DNA from: Candidatus Zixiibacteriota bacterium
GTDB taxonomy: Bacteria > Zixibacteria > MSB-5A5 > GN15 > FEB-12
Length of the DNA: 48,423 nucleotides
Assembly (NCBI GenBank): GCA_040752815.1
Contig: JBFMGC010000018.1
Location: 1 to 48,423 of the forward strand
Direction of reading: 5' to 3'
A model generated the notes under the pieces. It was not told the DNA's origin. It saw only the letters and a list, made by a program, of their open reading frames with translations, and made no database searches. Both the position numbers and the translations under genes were made by a program. Of this stretch, positions 41,055 through 43,995 are shown piece after piece. Each line of letters opens with the position of its first letter. The stretch's first letter is position 1.

Positions 41055-41672
41055 TCACGCCATTTTCCGCAGCAATCCCACCACCTTGCCGGCGATCCGG
41101 AAATCGCCCGACTTGCGACTGACATAGATCGGCTCGTAGGCGGCGTTCTCCGGCTGAAGGCGGATTCGCTGGCCCTCGGGATAATACCGCTTTACCGTAG
41201 CTTCGCCGTTGACTACCGCCACCACAATGTCCCCTTTCTGGGCGACAGACTGTTTACGCACGATGACCACGTCGCGATCGTGAATACCGGCGTCGATCAT
41301 CGAATCTCCCTTGACTGTCAGGCTGAACGTGTCCCCTTTCGGCATAAATGAGACATCCAGCAGGATCTCACCCTCGACATTTTCGGCCGCGTCAATCGGC
41401 TGGCCCGCCGGCACCGCACCGACCAGAGGCACTCGCCCAGCGCCTGCCGCCAGACTTCGAGTCAGCTCAAGCCCTCGAGAGATGAAATCCGATTTCTTGA
41501 GATACCCCTTTCGGATCAAGGCCGCGAGGTGGGTGCGAACACCGTTGGTGGAGCTAATCCCAAATCGCTCCCCGATCTCGCGTATAGTCGGTGAATGCCC
41601 CTTCTCGGTAATGAGCCGCTCGATAAAATCGAGAATCCGCCGCTGCTTCAGTGTAAGTTCTGCTCTGGTCAT
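41055..41672 (-). CDS. lexA: LexA repressor
   Basis: 205 residues from the ATG at 41672, the usual LexA length. Winged-helix DNA-binding domain: LTLKQRRILDFIERLITEKG, then PTIREIGERFGISSTNGVRTHLAAL. The cleavage site is the Ala-Gly in VGAVPAGQP, and catalytic Ser (VKGDSMIDAG) and Lys (EATVKRYY) are intact. When RecA filaments form on damaged DNA, LexA cuts itself and frees the SOS genes. An earlier in-frame start (41723) is unlikely because it lies inside the promoter/operator. AAAGGG is the probable ribosome site. No SOS target besides itself is seen here. Confidence 0.95.
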   Translation of the reverse strand: MTRAELTLKQRRILDFIERLITEKGHSPTIREIGERFGISSTNGVRTHLAALIRKGYLKKSDFISRGLELTRSLAAGAGRVPLVGAVPAGQPIDAAENVEGEILLDVSFMPKGDTFSLTVKGDSMIDAGIHDRDVVIVRKQSVAQKGDIVVAVVNGEATVKRYYPEGQRIRLQPENAAYEPIYVSRKSGDFRIAGKVVGLLRKMA

Positions 41673-41706: not shown

Positions 41707-41738
41707 TTGACACTACTGCTCATTTGAGCATCTGTCAA
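41707..41738 (-). promoter_or_regulatory. lexA promoter with a self-operator in its spacer
   Basis: TTGACA (41738-41733), 17 bases, TAGTGT (41715-41710). In the spacer lies the perfect palindrome TGCTCA-AA-TGAGCA (41730-41717). A repressor between -35 and -10 is the classic autoregulation site. The pattern TGCTC-N4-GAGCA differs from the E. coli (CTGT-N8-ACAG) and Gram-positive boxes and is close to the reported Fibrobacter box TGCNC-N4-GTGCA. Confidence 0.6.
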
Positions 41739-41916: not shown

Positions 41917-43995
41917 CTAAGACTCAGCCTGCCTGGCGGCCTGGGCCTCAGCGATAATCTTCTGAGCAATCTCGTGGGGAACCTGCTCATACCGGTCAAA
42001 CTCCATCGAGTAGAACCCCTGGCCCTGGGTCATGGAACGAAGGTCGACCGAGTACTGGTACAATTCCGCCTGGGGCACCGACGCACGAATCCGCTGTGAC
42101 GCGCCCTCGCGCTCCATGCCGGAAATCTTCCCGCGGCGCGAGGAGAGGTCGCCCATCACATCGCCGGTAAACTCATCCGGTACGAGCACCTCGATATTGC
42201 AGATCGGTTCGAGAATAACCGGTTTGGCTTTCATGAACCCGTCGCGGAAGGCCATCAGGCCGGCGATCTTAAAAGCCATATCCGAGGAATCAACCTCATG
42301 ATACGAACCGAAAAACAGAGCCACCTTGATGTCAACCACCGGCGCCCCGCATAAATTCCCGTCCTGCATCGCCTCGACAATCCCCTTTTCGACAGCGGGA
42401 ATGAACTTGCCCGGGATTACGCCACCCTTGATCTCGTCGATAAACTCAAAGCCGCCGCCGCGCAGATTCGGTTCGATGCGAATATGCACGTCGCCGAACT
42501 GCCCCCGTCCGCCGCTCTGCTTCTTGTGGCGGTATTGCGTTTCAGCTTTCGCGGTGACTGTTTCCCGGTATGGGACCTTCGGCTTGGTCAGTTCGACCTC
42601 TACCCCAAAGCGCTTCTGGAGCTTTTCCATGAGAACTTCTATGTGGGTCGATCCCTGCGCATAGAGCACCTGTTGCTTGAGAGCCGGATCGGCCTTCAGC
42701 TCAAAGGTGGGATCTTCGCTTCGCAACTTGGCCAGACCGGATGCAATCTTCTCCTCGTCCCCCTTCTTCCTGGGCCGCATGGCCACGTCCATTACCGGCT
42801 TGGGGTATCTCACGGGCGTGATGCTCACGCGGCCGTCCTTGAGCGAGAGCGTATCGCCGTTGCGCGTGTCCCGCAGCTTGACCGCCACGCCGATATCTCC
42901 CGCGGCCAGCGAGGTAACGTCGATCCGGTTCTTCCCCTGCAGAGTGTAGAGCTGCGCCAGCCGCTCGGTAACGCCTGTATGCAGGTTATGCAGTTCCAAT
43001 CCGGGCTTGATCGTCCCGGAGTACATTTTGAACCAGGTCATCTCGCCGAGATGCCCCTCAGTGACTGTTTTGAACACATAGGCGATAGACGATCCGGCCG
43101 GGTCGATTTTTAAATCGACTGCTTGCCCGGAGCCCGGAGCCGAGGCGGCCGGCTTTCGACCTTGATTGGGCGCAGGCAGGAATTCGACCGCAAAATCCAG
43201 CAATGCTTCCACACCGATATCTTTGGCGGCTGAGCCGAACAAGATCGGGAATAGTGTCCCCTTGAACACCCCTGTACGCAGCCCCTGGATGGTTTGGGCG
43301 GCGTCGAGTGTCCCCTCCTCAAAAAACTTCTCGAGGAGCGCATCGTCGGATTCAGCGGCCATCTCCACCAACTTTTCTCGCAGCGACTCCGCCTCTCCCT
43401 TGAGATTGGCAGGTATCTCGGTTTCGGCCTGCTTGCCGCCTGAATAAGTGTAGGCTTTCATGTGGACCAGGTCGATGATCCCCTTGAAGGAATCCGCCTC
43501 GCCAATCGGCACCTGCACCGGCACCGCGCGATTGCCAAAAGCGGACTGGAGAGACTGAACGGCGGCTAGCCACTTCACGTTTTCCTTGTCCATCTTGTTG
43601 ACGAAAAAGAACCGAGCCAGGCCGGTCGGCATCATCCGCCACTGCAGCTGTGTGCCGACCTCGGCTCCGGCAACAGCGTCGACGAGAACTCCGGCGGCAT
43701 CGGCCACCGCCACACTTGAAAGCAAATCCCCCACGAAATCGGCGTGCCCCGGACAGTCAAGCAAATTGACTTTGCGATTCTTCCATGTGGTCGCCATCAG
43801 TTTGGCGGAGATTGTCGACTTTCGGGAAACCTCGGACTCGGTGTAGTCGAAATAGGAACTGCCGTCGTCTACCCGGCCGATCCGGTTGTTAGCGCCGGTA
43901 TGAAACGCGAGGGCATCGGCCAGGCTGGTCTTACCGCAGCCGCGCTGGCCGGTCAGACAAAGATTGCGAATGTTATCAGTAGTGAATTCCTTCAC
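41917..43995 (-). CDS. Elongation factor G-like GTPase (EF-G paralogue)
   Basis: 692 residues, GTG start with GGAGG 8 bases before it. GTPase motifs: G1 GQRGCGKTS, G3 DCPGH, G4 NKMD. Domains II to V follow, ending near the usual EF-G end. The G1 loop (GQRGCGKTSLADAL in place of AHIDAGKTTT) and the FVNKMDKENVKWL region set it apart from canonical EF-G, so it is likely an EF-G2-like paralogue rather than the main translocase; the true fusA is not in the window. It may act in ribosome recycling or as a stress-time EF-G. It is monocistronic, with a perfect consensus promoter. Confidence 0.88.
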   Translation of the reverse strand: MKEFTTDNIRNLCLTGQRGCGKTSLADALAFHTGANNRIGRVDDGSSYFDYTESEVSRKSTISAKLMATTWKNRKVNLLDCPGHADFVGDLLSSVAVADAAGVLVDAVAGAEVGTQLQWRMMPTGLARFFFVNKMDKENVKWLAAVQSLQSAFGNRAVPVQVPIGEADSFKGIIDLVHMKAYTYSGGKQAETEIPANLKGEAESLREKLVEMAAESDDALLEKFFEEGTLDAAQTIQGLRTGVFKGTLFPILFGSAAKDIGVEALLDFAVEFLPAPNQGRKPAASAPGSGQAVDLKIDPAGSSIAYVFKTVTEGHLGEMTWFKMYSGTIKPGLELHNLHTGVTERLAQLYTLQGKNRIDVTSLAAGDIGVAVKLRDTRNGDTLSLKDGRVSITPVRYPKPVMDVAMRPRKKGDEEKIASGLAKLRSEDPTFELKADPALKQQVLYAQGSTHIEVLMEKLQKRFGVEVELTKPKVPYRETVTAKAETQYRHKKQSGGRGQFGDVHIRIEPNLRGGGFEFIDEIKGGVIPGKFIPAVEKGIVEAMQDGNLCGAPVVDIKVALFFGSYHEVDSSDMAFKIAGLMAFRDGFMKAKPVILEPICNIEVLVPDEFTGDVMGDLSSRRGKISGMEREGASQRIRASVPQAELYQYSVDLRSMTQGQGFYSMEFDRYEQVPHEIAQKIIAEAQAARQAES

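Follow-up and report, generated by a model that had tools for sequence, protein, structure and literature searches.

The window, that is, the whole analysed stretch of 48,423 nucleotides, carries on its minus strand at 41055..41672 an ORF of 205 amino acids starting with MTRAEL, which was assigned to the LexA repressor/autoprotease family by TIGR00498 with 212.4 bits (cut-off 110.95; E 5e-63). Both the LexA winged-helix DNA-binding domain (PF01726, 74.1 bits vs. a cut-off of 23.7) and the S24 peptidase domain (PF00717, 113.3 bits vs. a cut-off of 23.3) were detected, and alignment with the E. coli LexA chain placed the Ala-Gly cleavage site within VPAGQP, corresponding to VAAGEP of the E. coli protein. 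In the same alignment the Ser and Lys residues of GDSM and ATVKRYY matched those of E. coli LexA, and we take these two residues to be the catalytic pair. The recognition helix reads STN[GS]VR in all 30 LexAs compared, whereas that of E. coli reads SPNAAE. Judged by its sequence, with both domains, the cleavage site and the Ser/Lys residues present, the gene is a genuine LexA.

A gene for an EF-G-like GTPase (41917..43995, minus strand; an ORF named by inspection) is the upstream neighbour of lexA on the same strand and leaves lexA a promoter region of its own. This region contains a -35 hexamer TTGACA (41733..41738, minus strand) and a weak -10 hexamer TAGTGT (41710..41715, minus strand) that are separated by the 17-nt spacer GATGCTCAAATGAGCAG (41732-41716, minus strand). 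As the original prediction had stated, this 17-bp spacer is filled by the perfect palindrome TGCTCAAATGAGCA (41717..41730, minus strand), the predicted core of a LexA operator. Comparison of lexA promoters showed that the form of the operator conserved among relatives is TGNNCANNTGNGCAGTA, which reads TGCTCAAATGAGCAGTA in the window (41714..41730, minus strand). The -10 hexamer is poor, with 3/6 consensus letters. Across 60 aligned lexA promoters of relatives, every letter of TTGAC was conserved in 58 to 60, while in the -10 element the T was found in 60, the A in 57 and the last T in 43.

The palindrome had been proposed to define a separate SOS box class, with TGCTC-N4-GAGCA as its motif and as a tool for finding the SOS genes of the lineage. 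The literal string proved unsuitable for either purpose. Its exact form occurs in the window as a single site (41717-41730), and when up to two mismatches were allowed 23 matches were obtained vs. 25 expected. Genome-wide, three exact sites were found in 3.19 Mb, where about three are expected from 4^-10; no recognised SOS gene was seen alongside the other two, and of the loci in this genome that bear a box, lexA was the only one recovered by the exact scan. Scanning with this string was therefore rejected as being at chance level in window and genome alike, and the significance of the palindrome lies in its conservation across relatives and not in any rarity of the literal string.

This conservation was determined on lexA upstream regions from 62 of the 63 genomes over the family cut-off, among 79 related genomes; the remaining one (G010), in which the gene is cut by a contig end, was left out. 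Thirty of these promoters were used to build a consensus, the other 32 were held out as a test, and the 62 sequences were randomised 50 times by a first-order Markov model (3100 in total) as control. The results showed that the promoters share, with few departures, the layout TTGAC-N3-TGNNCANNTGNGCAGTA. In the first count the box was exact at 30 promoters and present with one mismatch at 24 and with two at six, the remaining promoters being those of G074 (three mismatches) and G028 (no match). The G028 copy counted at first is a secondary lexA, and the copy adjoining the EF-G-like gene of that genome carries TTGACAAG-TGAACAAATGAGCACTA with one mismatch. After this correction the box was found within one mismatch at 55/62 lexA promoters and within two at 61/62, vs. 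2/3100 randomised promoters within one mismatch. The held-out promoters gave 13 exact boxes, 15 with one mismatch and three with two, plus G028, in the first count, which places 29/32 within one mismatch after the correction and 28/32 before it. Since some lexA boxes (7/62, including those of the distant G074, G076 and G078) deviate by two or three mismatches, the consensus applies to the order of the window. When TTGAC was required in register (17 fixed letters in total), 90/132 genomes of the phylum were matched and the reversed control matched 0/132; the exact box by itself gave 109 matches in the 79 genomes vs. 11 for the reversed pattern. With a genuine lexA downstream and the box conserved to this degree, the predicted LexA operator in lexA's own promoter was upheld, and we are highly confident that the palindrome in the window is the operator of lexA itself, at which LexA would bind and repress.

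The best conserved parts of the 60 aligned boxes were the spacer letters TG, CA, TG and GCAG (each in 49 to 60), with the TA of the -10 element coming next, and the conserved lexA operator in relatives can be written (C)TGNNCA-N2-TGNGCAG(TA). Letters 3 and 4 of the half-sites vary across lexA boxes, and for this reason TGCTC/GAGCA is just one realisation of an operator whose class in the phylum is, on the promoters compared, (C)TGNNCA-N2-TGNNCAG. The left half of the lexA boxes begins with TGAAC in 27/62, often as TGAACA, and nearly all of them have TGNGCAG as their right half, which makes the lexA operator a hybrid. The promoters of secondary LexA homologues carried no box (0/6; the second LexA of G009 had too little upstream DNA to judge and was left out), and eight LexA relatives from named records had no box within two mismatches.

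In the window's own genome (G000) the exact form of TGNNCANNTGNGCAGTA was found at three sites, namely lexA, C12:16174 and C42:24231. The box at C12:16174, TTGACACC-TGCACAAATGTGCAGTA, precedes a gene for an 86-aa protein and a gene for an 898-aa helicase, and it carries TGCACAAATGTGCA, an exact fit to TGCNC-N4-GTGCA. The helicase was found in 69 genomes, and all 61 with readable upstream DNA had the box at this operon (50 exact, 11 with one mismatch). Eight genomes (G015, G026, G033, G057, G060, G063, G069 and G077) were left out as the gene start or upstream DNA lay off the contig; in G060, G063 and G077 the box and the small-protein gene are present on another contig. The best profile for the helicase was PRK02362 with 247.8 bits, below the equivalog cut-off of 887, and NF040935 (Hel308) gave 169.4 bits vs. 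a cut-off of 1200; the PADLOC HamB profiles match it too, more weakly. Motif IVa, F/YHHAGL, is described as a Hel308/HELQ feature in the abstract of PMC10484726. The helicase lacks this motif and has FHNSDL at the apparent place, as judged by eye. Although the solved structures nearest to it are those of archaeal Ski2-type/Hel308 helicases, the scores below the equivalog cut-offs led us to class it, from its sequence, as Hel308-like only (Ski2-type).

The 86-aa protein (L145:2236-2496, on contig C12) has a cysteine-rich, zinc-ribbon-like tail. It had no Pfam match at 0.01, and the only NCBIfam profile matched (E 9e-5) was that of the B12-dependent ribonucleotide reductase C-terminal tail, which its relative in L164 matched with E 3e-6. 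A tail of the form CPDC...C..C..CG..SC is conserved in most of 30 aligned small proteins, with the distant L289 and L290 deviating. The small protein may link the SOS response to nucleotide supply. The two-gene operon of zinc-ribbon-tail protein and Hel308-like helicase would be, as judged from its box, the most constant LexA target besides lexA. In the vicinity of this operon, G000 has a gene that resembles Lon protease by eye (L145:7107-9566), and the same seems to hold for G009, G017 and G073.

ImuA proper (E below 1e-70) was identified in 14/79 genomes, not counting a piece of ImuA, 42 residues long, located where a contig of G019 ends. Neither ImuA nor ImuB was found in G000, where the empty ImuB search shows little. 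The imuA box was present within one mismatch in 12/14 genomes, being exact in seven (G008, G020, G026, G028, G037, G046 and G078) and one mismatch away in five (G009, G010, G029, G041 and G045); G036 had it with two mismatches, and no box was found at imuA of G030, a gene with an internal stop. In G020 the box lies about 600 bp ahead of the longest ORF, and in G078 one box lies between diverging imuA and helicase genes. At several imuA promoters the box is situated downstream of a TATAAT-like -10 element, outside the spacer. The cassette at L160 encodes RecA-like, IMS and PHP domains in the order of imuA, imuB and dnaE2, with the ImuA profile NF033429 scoring 45.5, below its cut-off of 150. 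We infer that imuA-imuB-dnaE2 is a LexA target in most genomes having the cassette. The third exact box of the window's own genome, C42:24231 (L146:6232), is of the imuA-promoter type; no recognisable gene was found after it on the contig, which ends about 234 bp on.

An exact box was also found between uvrA and a divergent gene in G016. This divergent gene (L187:1618-3063) has an HD-type look by eye and starts about 16 bp from the box. As a general target uvrA was rejected, with 0/19 promoters having the box within two mismatches; five further genomes over the cut-off, with incomplete genes or genes at contig ends, had no box within two mismatches in the stretches examined. Promoters of recA were examined in 70 of the 77 genomes with a recA match, and none had the box within one mismatch, the window's own genome included; for the family of the window, recA was therefore discarded from the targets. 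At two mismatches the box was matched at two recA promoters, those of G041 (unconvincing) and G074. In this family recA thus appears to stand outside control by the LexA box. Absence of the palindrome from recA and other SOS promoters had been named at the outset as what would count against the original prediction; the box is indeed absent from 70 recA and 19 uvrA promoters, but imuA-imuB-dnaE2, the helicase operon and one uvrA region have it. Leaving aside its exact boxes and the mirror of C42, G000 has five one-mismatch sites, which were rejected as members since the reversed control pattern gives six. Exact boxes in some relatives were also found at genes without evident SOS role: those at L177, L182, L188, L192 and L203, located within ORFs or beside unrelated genes, seem to be chance matches, and those at L152:3417 (G022) and L199:2084 (G051) precede genes that are possibly lineage-specific SOS genes.

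Binding of the box by LexA, repression and RecA-triggered release are most likely, as judged from the protein family, the anatomy of the site and established knowledge of LexA. A LexA dimer would occupy the 17-bp spacer between the -35 and -10 elements of lexA and so block RNA polymerase, and would likewise sit in the spacer at the promoter of the helicase operon and, at imuA, in the start region. After DNA damage, RecA on single-stranded DNA would trigger self-cleavage of LexA, upon which lexA and the other box-bearing genes would be switched on. It is improbable that the box is instead the operator of another repressor controlling lexA and the repair genes, with LexA binding elsewhere. In favour of such a regulator is another conserved element (ATGTGATAT / ATATCACAT), which is found at recA and, in reversed orientation, ahead of many lexA genes, but the box stands at lexA in nearly all genomes with a lexA promoter examined, its form is lineage-specific at unrelated targets (TGCACA vs. 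TGAACA types), and several of the genes that carry it are classic SOS genes, i.e., imuAB-dnaE2, uvrA (one genome) and recA (family f5). The box is moreover two-fold symmetric, and two-fold symmetric sites are the kind used by LexA dimers. That the palindrome arose by chance between the two hexamers, or that nothing but the promoter is conserved, would agree with the chance frequency of the literal TGCTC-N4-GAGCA in the genome and with TTGACA and TA being promoter letters. The conserved TG, CA, TG and GCAG are, however, spacer letters, and the box is conserved at other operons, at imuA outside the spacer and downstream of a TATAAT-like -10 element; together with the counts given above (90/132 genomes vs. 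none for the control, 55/62 promoters vs. 2/3100 randomised ones and 29/32 held-out), this refutes chance and leaves the whole explanation with next to no probability. A LexA operator at lexA is the reading that we retain.

That this operator is simply a box of the classical E. coli or the strict Fibrobacter type, with nothing new about it, is no more credible than chance, as comparison with the known types shows. The LexA box of Fibrobacter succinogenes is TGCNC-N4-GTGCA, and that of Gram-positive bacteria (Bacillus/Actinobacteria) is GAAC-N4-GTTC; the Fibrobacter box was reportedly the subject of Mazon et al. 2004 (Microbiology 150:3783). The literature describes the F. succinogenes LexA as characterised (PMC3091678), cites Mazon et al. 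2004 (PMC3108266), and mentions 17 distinct LexA-binding motifs, with motifs that change between groups, as well as the Geobacter operator GGTT-N10-AACC (PMC8565304). The E. coli consensus is given as TACTG(TA)5CAGTA, i.e., TACTG-N10-CAGTA (PMC9578287). The outer CTG-N10-CAG of the helicase and imuA boxes has the same spacing as this consensus, but the fourth and inner letters differ, as does the recognition helix (STNGVR vs. SPNAAE), and no CTGT-N8-ACAG was found in about 350 bp upstream of lexA or recA of the window's genome; the predicted difference from the E. coli box was thus confirmed. The likeness to the Fibrobacter box, which had also been claimed, was borne out in half-site length, in the N4 centre and in the TGCAC/GTGCA arms of the helicase box, which is an exact fit in the window's genome and of the same kind in most relatives examined. 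Across 60 loci, which mostly represent the helicase operon, 42/45 exact boxes linked to TTGAC fit the Fibrobacter consensus. The lexA box of the window, in contrast, has GAGCA and not GTGCA, lexA boxes deviate at inner arm positions, and the strict consensus fits 2/62 of them. As in Geobacter sulfurreducens, for which a title cited in PMC3108266 speaks of an autoregulated lexA and of LexA not binding the recA promoter, lexA has a box and recA does not, but the operator is a different one.

The relation to the Gram-positive type is closer than had been supposed. The N4 palindrome is the same and 27/62 lexA boxes start with TGAAC, but the right half is TGNGCAG at most lexA genes, and GAAC-N4-GTTC was absent from the roughly 350 bp that precede lexA and recA in the window's genome. 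Searches for TGAACA-N2-TGTTCA in 26 genomes gave exact matches in four, three of family f5 (G074, G126 and G128) and one of family f19 (G125); it is located at the helicase operon in G074, G125 and G128 and upstream of recA in G074 and G126. This form contains GAAC-N4-GTTC and is one letter per half-site away from TGCAC-N4-GTGCA. The claim of a class separate from that of Bacillus therefore holds for the lexA boxes, none of which (0/62) has strict GAAC-N4-GTTC, and not for the phylum as a whole, because the box of deeper relatives contains it. The phylum thus shows both the Gram-positive and the Fibrobacter types, with mixed half-sites at lexA.

Regarding the second element, ATGTGATA or AGTGATA-type letters were seen in 42/50 recA upstream regions, including the recA promoter of the window's own genome (contig C2, L113). 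The form AAWGTGATATAYT was present in 35/50, in most cases some 105-115 bp ahead of the start of recA, often with CTATTTTA about 20 bp further upstream. It was found in 62/79 genomes, usually once or twice and in many cases at recA, and its reversed control matches too. Possible readings of the element are a CRP-like half-site and an extended -10. In reversed orientation (TATCAC) it was seen in 28/62 lexA upstream regions (e.g., L022, L045 and L105, all of relatives), seven of which have it twice, in direct orientation and at a distance of 13-14 bp. It may be that recA and lexA share another regulator that does not depend on LexA.

Taken by its sequence and anatomy, the site is a LexA operator of known kind with a variant motif and an unusual regulon. 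LexA motifs change between phyla and the motif is the key to the regulon, so that the corrected motif can serve to read this phylum's SOS regulon with nothing but sequence at hand. A box of its own in a new lineage would not surprise specialists; less expected are the mixed half-sites and the constant Hel308-like helicase target. Among the presumptive LexA targets the most constant is a relative of the archaeal Hel308 and metazoan HELQ/PolQ helicases, and the TGAACA, hybrid and TGCACA half-sites may represent living intermediates for how a LexA operator may shift class. In a literature search that most subscription papers lay beyond, we found no work joining Hel308, LexA and the SOS response; none joining LexA with a Ski2-like helicase or HELQ was found among the best matches listed, nor was an SOS study of a comparable uncultured phylum among the matches listed. 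We tentatively propose, at somewhat less than even confidence, a phylum-wide SOS response in which a Hel308/PolQ-like helicase is the principal LexA target together with a co-expressed small protein resembling a ribonucleotide reductase tail, in which recA stands outside LexA control in the main order, and whose operators preserve the steps between GAAC-N4-GTTC and TGCAC-N4-GTGCA with hybrid half-sites at lexA. Dockerin-like repeats, which together with genome size and G+C may point to Zixibacteria, were also seen at L141:2671-3015.
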